Shown: positions 1,646 to 18,940 of the stretch, in pieces
Numbering within the stretch: the first letter of the stretch is position 1
How the letters are laid out: every line of letters starts with the position of its first letter
NCBI GenBank assembly: GCA_003278095.1
Contig: QCHB01000004.1
Span: 1 to 64,000 of the forward strand
DNA length: 64,000 nt
Direction: 5' to 3'
Source: SAR116 cluster bacterium AG-390-L20
GTDB taxonomy: Bacteria; Pseudomonadota; Alphaproteobacteria; Puniceispirillales; Marisalimonadaceae
Position numbers and translations under genes: made by a program
The notes under the pieces: generated by a model
Database searches by the model: none
What the model was told of the DNA's origin: nothing
What the model saw: the letters and a program-made list of their open reading frames with translations, nothing else

Positions 1646-2353
1646 CTAATTTTTGAATTTAATTACTTTTTTTGCTGGTGACAAATTAATTTCATCCACA
1701 ACTGTATTCCTATTAAGTGTTAAAATATTAGCGACCGAATTTGAAATATCATCAACACTAATAGCGTTTTCTGGATCATCTCCTGGTAAGAAATTTAAGT
1801 TATCAAAGAAGTTTGTTCTAACCATTCCAGCATTTATTATGCATACACGTATATTATTACTCGCTACATCTTTACTTAGTGATTGTGCAAAACCTCTTAA
1901 TCCAAACTTTGAGCTACAATAAAGACTTCCATTTTTGGCACCAGACAATCCAGCCTCAGATCCTATAAATATTATATCACCTTTTTTTAATTTTTTGAAA
2001 TGAGGGAGTAAGCCTTTAGTTATAATTAAGTGAGAAGTTAAGTTCATCGAAATGAAATTATTAATTTGATCAACAGAAAAATTTTCAAGAGGACCAAACT
2101 CACCATTACCCGCATTGCTAACTAATCCATTAATTTTAGGATGATCTTTTAAAATTAGCTTAATATTTTTTTCTAAATTATGTATGTCACTTATATCAAG
2201 CGTGTATGTAATATAATTATCATGTTGTATTATTGCCTTTTTATGATCTCGAGAAATTCCAACTACTTTAGCTCCCAAATCAAGTAGTTTAGCAGTTATT
2301 GCTTTGCCTATGCCACTAGAACTTCCTGTAACTAAAACACATTTATCTTTCAT
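1646..2353 (-). CDS. SDR-family NAD(P)-dependent oxidoreductase
   Basis: This is a classical short-chain dehydrogenase/reductase of 235 aa. It has the Rossmann glycine motif TGSSSGIG (residues 9-16), the NAG motif (80-82), a catalytic Ser near 132 and the YxxxK pair Tyr145/Lys149. All active-site elements are intact, so it should be an active NAD(P)H oxidoreductase; the substrate cannot be read from sequence. It begins 18 nt after the radical-SAM gene on the same strand and is probably the last gene of the glycosyltransferase / nucleosidase / radical-SAM operon. Confidence 0.88.
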   Translation of the reverse strand: MKDKCVLVTGSSSGIGKAITAKLLDLGAKVVGISRDHKKAIIQHDNYITYTLDISDIHNLEKNIKLILKDHPKINGLVSNAGNGEFGPLENFSVDQINNFISMNLTSHLIITKGLLPHFKKLKKGDIIFIGSEAGLSGAKNGSLYCSSKFGLRGFAQSLSKDVASNNIRVCIINAGMVRTNFFDNLNFLPGDDPENAISVDDISNSVANILTLNRNTVVDEINLSPAKKVIKFKN

Positions 2354-2371
2354 AAATTTATACCAATATAA

Positions 2372-3364
2372 TCAAGCATAACATCTAAATATTTGACTAT
2401 TATCCAAATATTTTAATGTTAGGTTTTTACAAAAAACTGACATTTCTTCTTCAATATTTGTATCATAAGAAATAATACCATCATTACTATATAAAGGACT
2501 TGTGAATAAAGGCTCGTTGGGATAAAGGTTAAAAATATCCTTAAACATTTTTTTTGGAAAACGTAATGGCCCGACACTAACGGAGTGAATGGCCTCTAGT
2601 GGAATAGAATTATAGACCTTTTCTAACAAATCTTCATATAAAAATTTCCAATCTTTTCCATGAATTAATGGATCAAATCTTAGTCCAATCTTCCAACCTC
2701 TTAATGCTAAATCAGAAATAACTTGGATACGTTTTGAAATTGAAGGAACTTTATTGTCTAAGGAAGATGACATTAGGTCAGGAATTAGACTATATGCCAT
2801 AATTACATTTTCCATTGGTTCTATTGACATAAATGGCTCTCTTTGAATACTTTTTGTTCTAAATTCAATTTCAACTTCTGGGTATTGTTGAAATATTGGT
2901 AATATGTGTTTTGCAAAGCCTGTTACGTTTTCAAGGGCAAGAGAATCACAGTCGTAACCAGAAAAAAAAGTTATTTTAGAATTAATATTCTGATCAATAA
3001 CATTTTTTATACTAGCATCAAAATCTTCAAAATTAACAAAAATAACGTAATTTGCAGAGGAAAACATCCCTTGAAGAAAACAATACCTACAATCATAAAT
3101 ACAATTGTACATGTGTGAAAAGTAAAAATTTTTTGAAGATCCTATTCCAAAACCTTCTGGGGTACGCAGCACAAAACCGTCATTTTTATGAGCAAGAATT
3201 AAATTAGGGTTAGCTTTTTGTATTCTGAAGTTTTGATTTCGCTTATTAAAAATTTCAGCATATTTATCTATTTCAATGAAGCGAGACTTTTTGAACTTTT
3301 TCAGTATAGATTTAGTTCTCGGATGATCTTTTATTTTTTTTTCAATATAAATTGTTTCTATCAA
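2372..3364 (-). CDS. Radical SAM protein, spore photoproduct lyase (SplB) family
   Basis: This is a radical SAM enzyme with the cluster motif CIYDCRYC (Cys88, Cys92, Cys95 from the chosen start), the CX3CX2C spacing used by spore photoproduct lyase. It is followed by FLQG, as in SPL (YLQG). Length is about 330 aa, close to SPL. I place the start at the TTG at 3364: it has GGAG six bases upstream and forms a TTGA overlap with the stop of the nucleosidase gene, implying coupled translation. A TTG at 3376 is the alternative. Nothing else in the window suggests spores. Alphaproteobacterial members of this family are known but have no settled function; DNA photolesion repair or another nucleotide-modifying reaction are both possible. 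Confidence 0.82.
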   Translation of the reverse strand: MIETIYIEKKIKDHPRTKSILKKFKKSRFIEIDKYAEIFNKRNQNFRIQKANPNLILAHKNDGFVLRTPEGFGIGSSKNFYFSHMYNCIYDCRYCFLQGMFSSANYVIFVNFEDFDASIKNVIDQNINSKITFFSGYDCDSLALENVTGFAKHILPIFQQYPEVEIEFRTKSIQREPFMSIEPMENVIMAYSLIPDLMSSSLDNKVPSISKRIQVISDLALRGWKIGLRFDPLIHGKDWKFLYEDLLEKVYNSIPLEAIHSVSVGPLRFPKKMFKDIFNLYPNEPLFTSPLYSNDGIISYDTNIEEEMSVFCKNLTLKYLDNSQIFRCYA

Positions 3365-4212
3365 ACGTCGCTCCAATTAACCTTATTGGTTTCAATTTTA
3401 TTATTTAAAGAATTAACTACAGAACTTGAACTTTTACATTGTTTGATTAAATCCATTATTTCATTATTATCACAAAAAACTTTTAAGCGTCTCAATAAAT
3501 TCTCTAATTGGGATGATTGAGTTACTGAAAAATGCCAATTAGATGAAATTTTGAAAAAAATATCAGGCTTTGCTTTTATTTGATTTTCGTTTTCAGAGAG
3601 ATTTTCATAATATAAAACAACTTGAGCAATCTTAGTAAGATTTAACTTTAATAATTCAATTATCCTTAGTTTAGTTAATTGTTTGATGTTATTTTCAGGA
3701 CCATCAGAAATAATTTTCATAATACAAATAAATTCTTTTGAAGTTAATTTACTGGCAATATCAAAAAACGCACTTCCTTCCATATCTATTAATTCTTTTG
3801 AAGAATAATCCGTTATTGGTATATCTGTTGTTAATAGACTCATCTTAGGTAAATTCGATTTAGGCATAGTTGCTGGATATGTAATATAAGAGTTTTGATT
3901 AAAAATTTTATCCACTAGATATATATTCCCGTAATCACCTTTGCCAGATCCCGCAATACCTATATTGATCCATGAGGTCCATTTAGAAGCCTTACTAATT
4001 GTATAAAGATATGACGTGGCGGCTGCAGAATTATGCCTTCCTACTCCAGATAGGATAAGCCAATGTGTCTCTTCAATATTCTTGTAAATAGGATATAAAG
4101 TTTTTTTATTTATAAGTGCCATTTCGTAATAATCTAAAATTACTTTGGCTTCTTCTTTGAGAGCAATAACCCATCTAACTGACATTTTATTCAACAATTC
4201 ACTTTTATTCAT
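3361..4212 (-). CDS. Nucleosidase/nucleoside phosphorylase-like protein (MTAN fold)
   Basis: This 283-aa protein resembles the PNP/MTAN superfamily. Seen: an N-terminal VIALKEEAKVI strand with Glu20/Glu21 in the position of the MTAN catalytic Glu, an SGVGRHNSAAA phosphate/ribose loop (55-65), NIGIAGSG (83-90), the DMEGSAFF signature (143-150, Glu145) and an SD pair (Asp170) like the adenine-protonating Asp. So the three expected catalytic residues seem present. The C-terminal 80 or so residues have no recognisable match. The start overlaps the end of the glycosyltransferase by 8 nt and the stop overlaps the radical-SAM start. A link to radical SAM chemistry is attractive because MTANs remove 5'-deoxyadenosine, but this is inference. 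Confidence 0.72.
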   Translation of the reverse strand: MNKSELLNKMSVRWVIALKEEAKVILDYYEMALINKKTLYPIYKNIEETHWLILSGVGRHNSAAATSYLYTISKASKWTSWINIGIAGSGKGDYGNIYLVDKIFNQNSYITYPATMPKSNLPKMSLLTTDIPITDYSSKELIDMEGSAFFDIASKLTSKEFICIMKIISDGPENNIKQLTKLRIIELLKLNLTKIAQVVLYYENLSENENQIKAKPDIFFKISSNWHFSVTQSSQLENLLRRLKVFCDNNEIMDLIKQCKSSSSVVNSLNNKIETNKVNWSDV

Positions 4213-5074
4213 TTTTAAGTTTATCTAATTCAATTGACCAGTCTTGAAGTTTACCATTATATTTTTTAAAAATTTCTTTATTTCCTCTTTTAAGGGCGCC
4301 ATCTGAAACAATAGTTAATTTTTCAATTAAAGTGTCTAAAACATTTATTTTTTGTGATTTTGAAAAATGTTCATTTTTTAAATTTTTTTCTAATGATTTT
4401 ATCCTAAATCTGTCCATTCCCCAAAATTTTTTAGATAATTGGTCACTATGCCCCCCATATTTTAAAACTAATGGACTATCTAAAAATCCAACTTCTTCTT
4501 TTGCGGTTATTCTTATCCACATATCATAATCTTCGCAAACCTCAAGATTCTCGTCGAAAAGGCCATAATCGTTAAAGATTTGCTTTTTAAGAACTACACT
4601 ACTTGGAGAAATACAACATAACTGAAGGGAGTTTTTGAATATATTTCCACCTGATTTTTTATGTTTTTTTAATTGATTTAAAAATTTTTTATTTCTATAC
4701 CAAGTTTCATCTGTATGAATAATTCTGTATTTATCCTGATTAAATACAGAGTATTCGATCTGTTTTTCTAATTTTGTTGGTTTCCAAGCATCATCAGAAT
4801 CTAAAAAGGCAATCCATTTTGATTTACTTTCTAAGATTCCTTTATTTCTAGCAGCACTTACACCTCTTTTTTTTTCAATGAAATAATTTATTTCTGGAAA
4901 TAGTGATGATACCATATGATAAGTTTGATCAGTTGAACCGTTATCAACAATAATAATTTCTTTCGGCGTAATTGTTTGTTTTATAACAGAATTAATAGCT
5001 CTTTTTAATAAATCACATCTGTTATACGTTGGAATTATAACCGAAATTTCGTCAATGGCTTTATTATAAGACAT
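4205..5074 (-). CDS. Family 2 glycosyltransferase
   Basis: This is a GT-A fold inverting glycosyltransferase of 289 aa. It opens with EISVIIPTYNR and IIVDNGSTDQT, has a GVSAARNKG turn, the DSDD metal/nucleotide-sugar motif at 92-95 and an EDYDMWIR segment (181-188) that supplies the catalytic base. There are no membrane segments, so it is probably cytoplasmic or peripheral. The sugar donor and acceptor are unknown. It is the first gene of a tightly packed set with the nucleosidase-like and SPL-like genes, an unusual place for an isolated glycosyltransferase because no other polysaccharide genes are nearby. Confidence 0.88.
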   Translation of the reverse strand: MSYNKAIDEISVIIPTYNRCDLLKRAINSVIKQTITPKEIIIVDNGSTDQTYHMVSSLFPEINYFIEKKRGVSAARNKGILESKSKWIAFLDSDDAWKPTKLEKQIEYSVFNQDKYRIIHTDETWYRNKKFLNQLKKHKKSGGNIFKNSLQLCCISPSSVVLKKQIFNDYGLFDENLEVCEDYDMWIRITAKEEVGFLDSPLVLKYGGHSDQLSKKFWGMDRFRIKSLEKNLKNEHFSKSQKINVLDTLIEKLTIVSDGALKRGNKEIFKKYNGKLQDWSIELDKLKNE

Positions 5075-5093: not shown

Positions 5094-5495
5094 TTAAGGC
5101 TTTTTATCAAAAGATTTTACGTTATCATCAATATAGTGAAATTTTTGTTTATCAGACGTAAAAATAGCTATTTCAGGTTCAAAAATAGCTGGATCATCAA
5201 AAGTACCTACTTTCAAAATAATTGAATTTGGTCTCATTGGGTTTCTTGTTCCAATAGCAGTACCGCATTTACTACAAAATAAGCGAGTCATTGAATTTTC
5301 TAAATCCTTTCTTTTAAATTCTTTAGGCTTACCAGATAGAAATTTAAATCCATCTAAAGGCATGATCATTAAAACGTTGGGATGTCCTCCAGTGATATAT
5401 TGACATTCCCTACAATGGCACTGAACTGAAGCTTGGGCGTCTCCATTAGAGACGTACCTAATTTCACCACAGTAACATCCACCTTCAATTTTCAT
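5094..5495 (-). CDS. GFA/CENP-V domain protein (Mss4-like zinc fold)
   Basis: This 133-aa protein belongs to the glutathione-dependent formaldehyde-activating (GFA) fold. It has the paired cysteine motifs CYCGEIRY and CHCREC in the N-terminal half and CSKCG in the second half, which bind two zincs in the family. The start is the ATG at 5495, six bases after a GGAG box; an upstream TTG would consume that box. Most GFA proteins outside Paracoccus have no proven formaldehyde role, so no reaction is assigned. It precedes the glycosyltransferase by 19 nt. Confidence 0.85.
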   Translation of the reverse strand: MKIEGGCYCGEIRYVSNGDAQASVQCHCRECQYITGGHPNVLMIMPLDGFKFLSGKPKEFKRKDLENSMTRLFCSKCGTAIGTRNPMRPNSIILKVGTFDDPAIFEPEIAIFTSDKQKFHYIDDNVKSFDKKP

Positions 5496-5525
5496 TAGAA
5501 ACTCCAAAATACTTTGTTTATATTA

Positions 5526-5825
5526 TTATAACTTTGTAACCTCTATAACTTCAATTGATTCTTGGTCATACCTTACATTAGGATTGTTATAATCATGGGG
5601 AACTTTAGTAAGTTTTTCAATTGGTAATTTATCTACCCAAAGTAAAAAATTAATTTCGACATTCTCTGCATTATCAAAATTTACTTTATTATTTATTTGA
5701 AATTCTTCATTAATTACTATTGTGTCCTCTTTAATTTCTCTGAAAGAGCCTCTTGTTGGATCATTTCCATAAAATGTTACCTCAAATCTAACTTTCCATT
5801 CATTTTTTTTAATAATTTTTTCCAA
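5526..5825 (-). CDS. Hypothetical protein, 99 aa
   Basis: I do not recognise this protein. It is hydrophilic, rich in beta-prone stretches (KVRFEVTFYG, VEINFLLWV), and has no signal peptide or cysteines. The only usable start is a TTG at 5825, since a TAA lies two codons upstream in frame. It lies 15 nt after the 74-aa gene and 18 nt before the GFA gene on the same strand, and that tight spacing is the main support that it is real. Confidence 0.55.
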   Translation of the reverse strand: MEKIIKKNEWKVRFEVTFYGNDPTRGSFREIKEDTIVINEEFQINNKVNFDNAENVEINFLLWVDKLPIEKLTKVPHDYNNPNVRYDQESIEVIEVTKL

Positions 5826-6204: not shown

Positions 6205-6522
6205 ATGAATAATTATGAAAATGTTACTGTCGATAAGCTAGCAAATATATATTTTGATGGAAATGTAATTAGTCGTAATATCACATTTCAAGACGGATCA
6301 AAAAAAACACTTGGAGTAATGCTTCCTGGTGATTATGAGTTTAGTACACAATCAAAAGAACTAATGGAAATATTTACAGGAGAACTAGATTTAAAATTAC
6401 CTGATAATCCAGGATGGAAAATAATTAAAGGAGGCATGAGTTTCAATGTTCCTAAGAATTCTTCATTCAAGGTCAAAGTGTCAAAATTAATTAACTACAC
6501 TTGTACATACTTTGATGAATAA
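6205..6522 (+). CDS. ppnP: Pyrimidine/purine nucleoside phosphorylase PpnP (DUF1255)
   Basis: This is a small cupin-fold phosphorylase that splits nucleosides to base and ribose-1-phosphate. The 105-aa length is near the family norm of about 94-105. Recognisable parts are YFDGNVISR, the LGVMLPGDYEF segment, MEIFTGELDLKLP and the C-terminal FKVKVSKLINYTCTY, which match the DUF1255 pattern. It sits 29 bp upstream of the flavoprotein gene and may be co-transcribed with it. Confidence 0.88.
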   Translation: MNNYENVTVDKLANIYFDGNVISRNITFQDGSKKTLGVMLPGDYEFSTQSKELMEIFTGELDLKLPDNPGWKIIKGGMSFNVPKNSSFKVKVSKLINYTCTYFDE

Positions 6523-15916: not shown

Positions 15917-18900
15917 TTAATTTGACTTATCATTAATAAAAAAATTATTGTCATTTAACCAATCATCTGCAAACAAATCTCTTAAAATACCTGGTGCAAA
16001 TGATAAAGTATTTAATTCAACTTTGGGACTTTCAATTGGTCCAACCATTTTAAATTGTCCTGCAAATAGTCCTTCTTTTTTTAATCCTGTTATTAATTTA
16101 CCAACAGCAGGTACAACACTTATAATTTGTGATATTAATTTAATTGGCGCGACTGATCCTCTCATATCTAAAACTTTTCTTTTTAAATTTATTTTTCCTT
16201 TAGCAGCAATTCCTAATGATTCACTAGAAAGATATACCTTATCAAACGTAAAGTTATGTTTCTTGACATTTATATTTGCTCTACCTTTATCAAAATAAAC
16301 TCCTTCCCCGGAAATGACAGACTGAATACCAGAAAAGCTTAAAACAGATAAGGAGTTAATTATTCCTGGAGTGTTAATTAGACTAAAATTTTTCGATTTA
16401 ATGACACCTTTATAATGATCGTATGTATCATTTAAAAAATTTATATTTATTTTCATTTTACCACTTTTTATATTTTTTGTGAAACCAAGAGCATTAAGAA
16501 GTTTACCTCCATCAGAAGTGTCAAAAATAATACTAGGTAATTTATCTTTGTTTTTTTCCATAATAATTTTAGTTTCTGCACCACCAACTAAACCAAAGCC
16601 ATTAAGCTTCGATATTTTATCGTCTATGTAAATTTCAAATTTTCCACTATCTAATAAAGATGATTTGCCAAGCCATATTTGTCCAAATGCATTTGCTTCA
16701 AAGATAGATTTATTTATTTTTCCCCTTAAGCTACCTGCCAAAGAAATTTTAGGGTCTAAGATAATCTTATCAGCTGTGATTTCAAAACTTATGTTAATAT
16801 TATTGTCGGATTGTTTTTTAAGATTGTCTTTTAAATAAGAAAAATCTATTTTTTTTCCTGAAAAATTTAAGTCAAATATTTTATTTTTTCTAGCAATAGA
16901 TACTTGTTTTAAATCTAATTTTGGAGTCTTAATATTTCTTAATAAAATTTGGGTTGGAGCTATACCATCTAATTTGACAATACCAATTTTATGATTATTT
17001 TTTTCTATTTTTAAATTTATATCCCTTATAAAAGCAAGTTTACCCTTTTGAAAAATAATTTCAGTTTTAATTGAGGATTTTATATTTTTTTTCTTTATGA
17101 GGTTTAAATAATTTATTTTTAAATCTGAATCAGTTAAGTCTGAATTTAACTTTAAATTTAGATCTAGATTGCTAATGTCTCCAGTTAATCTAATATTAAA
17201 CTCAGTATCACCAATGATATCTACATTAAAATTTTTCTTTAGGTAATCAGAAAATTCCTTATTATTTTTTACGTTCAGGAGACCGTTTTTAATAAATTGA
17301 TTTTTAATTACTGTATCTTTTAAAGCATATTGAAGTTTATTATATCTAAATAACATTGCTTTTTTAATTATATAATTACTTCCATTAATTTCAACGTCCT
17401 CAAATGAATACTGTAAATCATCTTTTTCAAATTTAGCTTTATTAATAATAAAATTATTTTTATGAATTTTCAGTTTTATTTTGGCGTTATCGAATTTATA
17501 ATCTAGATTATTTCCCCTTAATAATATAAAGCCTTTTGAAGCATTTAAATCAATATTTGCCCAAGTTTGGTCAATTATTATTTTGTTATTATTTTTATTC
17601 ACTTCAAATTTAAAGTCGCCAGATATAGTACAAAATACTTTTTTAAAGATTTTATCATTGTGTTCAAACCTAATATTACTGAATTTTGAACGCCCACTTA
17701 TTCTGAAAATATTAATTTTTTTAAAAAATGAAAAATTTAAATCTAAATTTATGTTATTTAAATTACCACCTTTGAAATTATCATTATATTGTTTTAAAAT
17801 ATTTAAATTAACGAATGAATTATAAAATTTTTTATTATAACTTAGATGATTTTTTAATATTTTTGTTGACAATCTTTTTATTACAAGATTAGAAAAACCA
17901 GTTTTAGAATTAAAATTTATCTCAGAATACGCTATTATTACATCGCCTATTGATAAATTATTAATCTTCAATAAACCATCTTTTTTGTTCCATAATAATT
18001 TACCGCTTAATTCTGAATTTAAAATAATATCATCATTATTTCTTATAATTAAGTTTGATTTATTTGATAAAAAATTAAAACTTTCTACATTAAAATTTTT
18101 ATCCGTAACAATCTTAAATCTACCCTTTAAGAAACCAGAAATAGTCTCTTTCTCAAATTTTAAACTTTCTTGTAACAAATTACTTAAAAATAATTTAGAG
18201 TCGATATTTTCTATGTTAAAGTTAAAGTTGTTAAAACTTTCTAAAAAGTTAGCTTTTACTGAAAAGTTTAATCTTTTATTTTTACTACAATTCATGTTGA
18301 GTGAACGGGCATTGTTTAAATATTTTGAAATAAAAACGTTTTTACAATTAATTTTTAAAGTACTTTGTTTAAGTGCTTCTCTACGATCTGAAATTAAAAG
18401 GTTAATATTTCCGATTACAATTTTATTTTGCAATATTTTTTTTAATGAGTGCTGTTCATCAAAACCTATTTGATTTATTGATAAAAAAGTTTTAAATAAT
18501 GGTCCTGGTATAAATTTATATTTCTCTAATTTTCCATACAAAGATAAATCTTTAAAATTTAGGTAACTAAATTCAAGATTATCTCTATTAAAAAAAATAT
18601 TTCTAAAAAAGAAATCGTATGAAAATCCTAATTCAATTAGCTTAATATTTGATTTTTCTTTTTGATTAATTGTATGAACTTTTGTGTCATTCAATTCGAT
18701 TTTTACAATATTAGGCCAGTTAGGTTTTAATATCTTTATAGAACTAATTTCAATTATTATATTTTCGTCATTAATTTTTCTTGAAATAAAACTTTTTACT
18801 TTTTTGTTAAGAACACCTTTTAAATTAAATGATTTAATTATAAAGTTTTGTGTTTGTTCTGAATAAACAAACATTGTTGTGACTACCCCGAATATAAAAA

Positions 18901-18940
18901 AAGGTAACATCAAAAGAAGAACTATAACTTTTTTCATCAT
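15917..18940 (-). CDS. AsmA/YhdP-like large envelope protein
   Basis: This 1007-aa protein has one N-terminal membrane anchor (residues 4-26) and a long, Asn/Lys/Ile-rich periplasmic part made of repeating beta strands. The last 190 residues or so, with TPGIINSLSVLSF and IAAKGKINLKRKVLDMRG, match the conserved AsmA-like C-terminal domain. Relatives (YhdP, TamB, AsmA) form beta-groove bridges carrying phospholipids between inner and outer membranes. The middle is poorly conserved and strongly AT-biased. The start is at MMKK after AAAGATG; a second Met follows at once. Confidence 0.82.
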   Translation of the reverse strand: MMKKVIVLLLMLPFFIFGVVTTMFVYSEQTQNFIIKSFNLKGVLNKKVKSFISRKINDENIIIEISSIKILKPNWPNIVKIELNDTKVHTINQKEKSNIKLIELGFSYDFFFRNIFFNRDNLEFSYLNFKDLSLYGKLEKYKFIPGPLFKTFLSINQIGFDEQHSLKKILQNKIVIGNINLLISDRREALKQSTLKINCKNVFISKYLNNARSLNMNCSKNKRLNFSVKANFLESFNNFNFNIENIDSKLFLSNLLQESLKFEKETISGFLKGRFKIVTDKNFNVESFNFLSNKSNLIIRNNDDIILNSELSGKLLWNKKDGLLKINNLSIGDVIIAYSEINFNSKTGFSNLVIKRLSTKILKNHLSYNKKFYNSFVNLNILKQYNDNFKGGNLNNINLDLNFSFFKKINIFRISGRSKFSNIRFEHNDKIFKKVFCTISGDFKFEVNKNNNKIIIDQTWANIDLNASKGFILLRGNNLDYKFDNAKIKLKIHKNNFIINKAKFEKDDLQYSFEDVEINGSNYIIKKAMLFRYNKLQYALKDTVIKNQFIKNGLLNVKNNKEFSDYLKKNFNVDIIGDTEFNIRLTGDISNLDLNLKLNSDLTDSDLKINYLNLIKKKNIKSSIKTEIIFQKGKLAFIRDINLKIEKNNHKIGIVKLDGIAPTQILLRNIKTPKLDLKQVSIARKNKIFDLNFSGKKIDFSYLKDNLKKQSDNNINISFEITADKIILDPKISLAGSLRGKINKSIFEANAFGQIWLGKSSLLDSGKFEIYIDDKISKLNGFGLVGGAETKIIMEKNKDKLPSIIFDTSDGGKLLNALGFTKNIKSGKMKININFLNDTYDHYKGVIKSKNFSLINTPGIINSLSVLSFSGIQSVISGEGVYFDKGRANINVKKHNFTFDKVYLSSESLGIAAKGKINLKRKVLDMRGSVAPIKLISQIISVVPAVGKLITGLKKEGLFAGQFKMVGPIESPKVELNTLSFAPGILRDLFADDWLNDNNFFINDKSN

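Follow-up and report, generated by a model that had tools for sequence, protein, structure and literature searches.

A widely conserved nucleosidase-like, radical SAM and dehydrogenase gene unit, often joined by a glycosyltransferase, in a SAR116 bacterium and its possible role in an undescribed pathway

What brings a family 2 glycosyltransferase (GT2), a nucleosidase-like protein (NUC), a radical S-adenosylmethionine (SAM) enzyme resembling spore photoproduct lyase (SPL), here termed rSAM, and a short-chain dehydrogenase/reductase (SDR) together in one compact locus? The question is raised by the first 64,000 nucleotides (nt) of contig QCHB01000004.1 of SAR116 cluster bacterium AG-390-L20, the whole of which is referred to as the window. 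All on the minus strand, GT2 (4205-5074; Pfam Glycos_transf_2, 9e-34), NUC (3361-4212; assigned by its predicted MTAN-like structure and catalytic acids), rSAM (2372-3364 or 3376; Pfam SPL PF20903) and SDR (1646-2353, the last gene of the unit; Pfam adh_short, 1.7e-44) overlap or lie no more than 18 nt apart. The answer favoured here, with a probability of roughly 0.38, is that the unit would be a horizontally moving biosynthetic cassette, analogous in its logic to the end of the hopanoid side-chain pathway and acting on a different acceptor.

The arrangement itself is not due to chance. A tblastn scan of 84,980 species genomes with rSAM (E <=1e-3) returned at least 550 relatives, which may include true SPLs, and the best 80, all clear and 45-98% identical, were kept. 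The rSAM of the window shares 98% identity with its counterpart in SAR116 cluster bacterium AG-337-N21. Carriers among these best 80 comprise SAR116, metagenome-assembled genomes (MAGs) and single cells labelled Rhodobacteraceae and other Alphaproteobacteria, Methylococcales (Methylomonas strains included) and other Gammaproteobacteria, Marinimicrobia, Omnitrophica, and MAGs labelled Acidobacteriota, Myxococcales and Planctomycetota. All four genes are present at 58 of the 80 loci, the remainder holding rSAM and SDR (10), NUC, rSAM and SDR (5), GT2, NUC and rSAM (4), rSAM alone (2) or NUC and rSAM (1), with some absences due to contig ends (L076, L094, L116, L127 and L138). Locus counts cover these 80 and the window only, since L041-L060 and L074-L153 share contigs; residue counts for SDR, GT2 and the NUC acids use all loci after removal of near-identical rows. 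Wherever two genes adjacent in the order GT2-NUC-rSAM-SDR were both found, they share one strand and are spaced by -60 to +150 nt, in 63/63 GT2-NUC, 69/69 NUC-rSAM and 74/74 rSAM-SDR pairs, a strong outcome for the conserved adjacency that the earlier note on this DNA had named in advance as its check. Among the loci mapped first, 20/21 hold all four genes in order. Within 151 genomes (the window's own and 150 relatives), NUC occurs in 39, all of them among the 47 with rSAM (a count that includes G059, represented by a short piece only), and each NUC match adjoins an rSAM match by coordinates (in G013, one of two fragments does).

The same earlier note, made from the sequence alone, had described four packed same-strand reading frames, and its coordinates and strand hold. 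Its 8-nt overlap of GT2 and NUC lies at 4205-4212, and the NUC stop codon TGA (3363-3361) indeed shares the letters TTGA (3364-3361) with an in-frame TTG (3364-3362) of rSAM. This TTG is a likelier start than that at 3376, because relatives most often join NUC and rSAM by the same -4 overlap (47/69); the protein measures 330 amino acids from TTG 3364 and 334 from TTG 3376, and residues are numbered by the longer form.

The surroundings of the unit vary widely. The upstream neighbours at 57 four-gene loci sort into 18 clusters and the downstream neighbours at 49 into 21, without a constant extra partner gene on either side. Within the window's genus the unit is patchily distributed, and in the rSAM tree, built without four weak SPL-like loci (L062-L065) in which the motif search was empty, SAR116 members lie dispersed between other groups, the outgroup branch being very long. 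Because the flanks differ so widely and SAR116 is so scattered, the pattern is as expected of a cassette moving between lineages. A virus-borne origin was considered and set aside, as 23 pattern matches in viral contigs yielded 0 relatives confirmed by tblastn; only 2 of 50,697 phage records (MT835514 and MT835770) carry genes of the unit, both being unverified, unannotated faecal contigs whose surrounding genes look bacterial on reading of their open frames. Plasmid carriage was likewise rejected: among 72,556 plasmid records there were three matches, one scoring as TIGR03886, one annotated as an SPL-family protein and one being a 2.1-Mb Fusobacterium record. The four proteins had 0 matches in PADLOC-DB 2.0.0 at E 0.001, and a place in anti-phage defence was dismissed as well.

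NUC and rSAM also travel together when they are not neighbours. In 201 genomes of an order centred on Methylomonas koyamae (taken from that name to be Methylococcales), rSAM occurs in 124, and NUC is found in 123 of these and in 0/77 others (Fisher p 1e-55), the two lying within 5 kb of each other in 9 genomes only. GT2 was detected in 65/201, all rSAM-positive and 64 NUC-positive (Fisher p 4e-18), at a strict cut of 1e-70 that may undercount it and that leaves 59 of the 124 rSAM genomes without GT2; neither p value is corrected for shared descent. The sole rSAM genome lacking a NUC match is G708 (G708:C1:3166949-3167506), where a GT2-like match sits in a 1866-amino-acid open frame. Ten gammaproteobacterial genomes chosen for loci seemingly devoid of NUC or GT2 yielded NUC in 9 (E <=1e-3; the exception is G549) and GT2 in 6 (E <=1e-40), and one of them (L150/L178) holds all four genes together after all. 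On inspection, the neighbouring genes at the split loci of methanotrophs have no common theme. A sample of 397 other genomes from the window's phylum contained only four matches to the rSAM profile at 1e-10 (best 4e-16), taken as SPL relatives, and no GT2 match better than 1e-49.

A natural fusion singles out NUC and rSAM as an interacting pair. In Fusobacterium vincentii (NZ_CP084075.1; L180:6098-7969), both form one 623-amino-acid open reading frame, with NUC at about 4-261 (profile E 3e-41) and rSAM at about 301-623 (E 1e-82), followed by SDR. One human faecal contig carries NUC, rSAM and SDR unfused, and inspection by eye finds its NUC motifs present; another holds SDR, a 160-amino-acid NUC remnant (L181:5505-5987) and rSAM. 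The remnant, detected by pairwise BLAST only and missed by the NUC profile, retains a conserved middle segment and the C-terminal domain. Since the GT2 profile found no match in the fusion locus or in the two faecal loci, GT2 is an addition to a core of NUC-rSAM-SDR. The Fusobacterium record itself is filed as a plasmid and has one annotated feature.

The character of rSAM bears directly on what the unit might do. Its motif CIYDCRYCFLQG is the CX3CX2C pattern followed by LQG that had been attributed to spore photoproduct lyase, its predicted structure has the SPL fold, and it scores 63.8 bits against Pfam SPL PF20903 (cut-off 27). Against the NCBIfam spore photoproduct lyase TIGR04070 it reaches 78.4 bits, below the 400-bit cut-off, and against the SPL-family protein TIGR03886 76.6 bits, below 437.55, one Aureimonas member scoring 584. 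In SPL, according to the excerpt of PMC3742179 drawn on here, Cys140 is the hydrogen donor and Tyr98 the relay residue. By sequence alignment at low identity rather than residue-level superposition, the position of the donor (Cys140/141) corresponds to Tyr141 in rSAM and that of the relay (Tyr98/99) to Phe100, each kept in 46/46 aligned members. On this alignment the SPL hydrogen donor is absent from the family, and labelling rSAM "spore photoproduct lyase", as Pfam does, would mislead under any reading. The NUC and SDR partners set it further apart from SPL.

NUC is similarly distant from its namesakes. It scores 17.1 bits against Pfam PNP_UDP_1 (cut-off 25.1), 18.7 against futalosine hydrolase TIGR03664 (cut-off 124.7) and 12.7 against the MTA/SAH nucleosidase model NF004079 (cut-off 169). 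Its predicted structure is nevertheless plainly MTAN-like over residues 7-209, with futalosine hydrolase among the nearest structures, and is extended by a helical C-terminal domain of about 75 amino acids. The three catalytic acids expected of an MTAN are all present in the window copy, as the earlier note had it, namely E21, E145 and D170, which we take to be the counterparts of E. coli MTAN E12, E174 and D197. All three are retained in 64 of the 70 full sequences (72 rows minus the fragments L076 and L116), including all 12 listed gammaproteobacterial or Methylococcales rows. The low score, the added domain and the co-inheritance with one rSAM family across genomes distinguish NUC from a plain MTAN. 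Another MTAN-like protein of 187 amino acids, encoded elsewhere in the window's genome (G000:C25:4174-4635, minus strand), is likely the housekeeping nucleosidase.

Key residues are conserved in both SDR and GT2. SDR keeps S132, Y145, K149 and N104 in 64/64 deduplicated relatives and its glycine-rich motif nearly throughout (G10 64/64, G14 63/64, G16 64/64), and GT2 keeps L91-D95 (LDSDD) in 59/59. No curated NCBIfam cut-off is passed by rSAM, NUC or GT2 (for GT2, among 25 of 27 families listed). Of the sugar transfer proposed earlier, the enzyme stands as a real GT2, whereas its centrality does not, given the rSAM genomes of the Methylomonas koyamae order in which it was not found. As a separate observation, contigs of eight SAR116 assemblies (L079, L080, L082-L086 and L089) break 673-701 nt past rSAM, just inside the 3' end of SDR, where other contigs continue; no repeat copy of the stretch at the break was found within the 20 kb of L054.

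How might these proteins act together? We infer every reaction of the favoured cassette. The predicted SPL-fold rSAM would cleave SAM and add the 5'-deoxyadenosyl radical to an acceptor molecule; the adduct would lose adenine to its dedicated partner NUC, leaving a ribosyl group; SDR would produce an alcohol by reducing the ribosyl aldehyde in its open-chain form or a different carbonyl; and in a subset of carriers GT2 would glycosylate the product. A more specific version, which must be considered tentative and somewhat improbable, is an undescribed pathway in which an SPL-fold enzyme that has lost its repair chemistry puts the ribose of SAM on a cell molecule, the MTAN-fold partner removes adenine, and SDR and GT2 complete a ribityl glycoside, its makers being many methanotrophs and scattered ocean, groundwater and gut bacteria. 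Among titles and abstract openings of the open-licence literature, no study of such a gene cluster was found; the earlier note, too, knew of no described system with these four genes. One odd cluster becomes a defined, testable and widespread orphan pathway and, if adenosylation is true, a new product class for an uncommon type of radical SAM chemistry.

Known pathways offer partial precedents. In the futalosine pathway to menaquinone, adenosylation by the radical SAM enzyme MqnE is followed by the MTAN-fold hydrolase MqnB, a pairing like that of rSAM and NUC, whose predicted structure lies near futalosine hydrolase. In hopanoid side-chain synthesis, as excerpted from PMC12583986, HpnH adds the 5'-deoxyadenosyl radical, HpnG removes adenine, the enzyme yielding the alcohol is not yet established and HpnI glycosylates, so that the order of radical SAM enzyme, adenine removal, reduction and glycosyl transfer would match the unit. 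Unlike HpnH, rSAM has the SPL fold, with no HpnH model among its NCBIfam matches at E 1, and unlike HpnG, NUC bears an added C-terminal domain. Membership of the hopanoid pathway itself was rejected: hopene cyclase was found in 0/61 genomes, among them that of the window (93% complete), in a search whose control matched 2/14 named genomes and exceeded the cut-off in 0/14, and thus had no strong positive control. Since no cyclase was found, the acceptor here is probably not hopene. Arsenosugar synthesis, in which the radical SAM enzyme ArsS has a role (PMC8552651, in excerpt), likewise combines a radical SAM enzyme with a GT2 of a related model (TIGR04283), but the GT2 of the window scores 67.8 bits, under the 182-bit cut-off, and no arsenic genes were among the proteins scanned in part of the window.

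Several points weigh against the cassette as proposed, beginning with the hopene cyclase that was not found. The modelled resemblance of rSAM to MqnE extends to the general radical SAM fold only, and the genome counts are not phylogenetically independent. At 5 of the 80 loci, rSAM and NUC occur and an adjoining SDR was not found, one of these loci lying at the end of its contig. Furthermore, E145 and D170 are lost in 6/70 NUC sequences (L050, L051, L052, L053, L124 and L126), all from SAR116 relatives in which GT2, rSAM and SDR look intact, and in one faecal contig NUC has shrunk to the remnant described above. If depurination were obligatory, lineages with acid-less or truncated NUC would be blocked, unless another nucleosidase substitutes. 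As a dead NUC beside an intact rSAM disfavours obligatory depurination, two other readings follow closely. The acid-less copies beside intact partners also constitute a natural dead-enzyme experiment.

In the first, a clean-up of 5'-deoxyadenosine that the earlier note had also raised and that is possible though on balance doubtful, rSAM would abstract a hydrogen atom and release 5'-deoxyadenosine, NUC would hydrolyse it at the enzyme, relieving inhibition and salvaging adenine, and SDR and GT2 would work on the rSAM product. The modelled MTAN fold of NUC is consistent with this, the fusion suits local removal, and the MtnN of M. tuberculosis prefers 5'-deoxyadenosine as its substrate in the excerpt of PMC6302742. 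The loss of acids in SAR116 would be tolerable if a shorter MTAN-like protein can substitute; such a protein occurs in many genomes of the window's order, mostly as open frames of 180-200 amino acids, and among genomes with acid-less NUC (incomplete assemblies) it is present in G040, G043 and G047 and not in G045 or G049. However, co-occurrence in 123/124 genomes exceeds what a replaceable clean-up enzyme would need, and the C-terminal domain and the retention of dead NUC are left unexplained.

In an unlikely second alternative, NUC would be above all a non-catalytic partner of rSAM, acting through its own C-terminal helical domain in assembly, docking of the substrate or gating, and its nucleosidase activity would come second. 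NUC evolves fast (its columns average 41% identity over 42 rows, vs 61% over 46 rows for the rigid rSAM), dead or truncated copies still adjoin intact rSAM, the faecal remnant preserves a conserved segment along with the C-terminal domain, and the two proteins are fused in Fusobacterium; yet the acids intact in 64/70 sequences, the gammaproteobacterial and Methylococcales rows included, point to catalysis in most. Very improbable, finally, is the lesion- or base-modifying pathway of the earlier note, in which rSAM, like SPL, would repair or alter a thymine-type base, leaving the modified nucleoside for NUC to process: despite the shared fold and motif it goes unsupported, because the hydrogen-donor cysteine is replaced in the alignment, as is the relay tyrosine, and carriers such as methanotrophs, an Omnitrophica MAG and faecal contigs presumably have no obvious need for UV repair, while SDR and GT2 have no evident repair role and the neighbour maps reveal no DNA-repair neighbour common across loci.

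Upstream of GT2, the window continues with genes that form a local extension of the four-gene unit. A GFA-family protein (5094-5507, minus; Pfam GFA 6.1e-28) lies 19 nt from GT2, and its cluster is the upstream neighbour at 19/57 four-gene loci, which by the neighbour maps belong to SAR116 and close kin. A further 18 nt upstream, its local companion encodes a 99-amino-acid protein of unknown family (5526-5825, minus), for which NCBIfam gave no match at E 1 and Pfam a sub-threshold match only. A scan for promoters and terminators found no signal exceeding chance. Some 380 nt past the 99-amino-acid gene lies a PpnP-type pyrimidine/purine nucleoside phosphorylase (6205-6522, plus; Pfam 1.8e-35), which is probably unrelated to the unit, although some SAR116 relatives also have its cluster close by. 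Farther away, a 1007-amino-acid open reading frame (15917-18940, minus) without a Pfam match at 1e-8 sits in AT-rich DNA (23% GC at 16001-18000).

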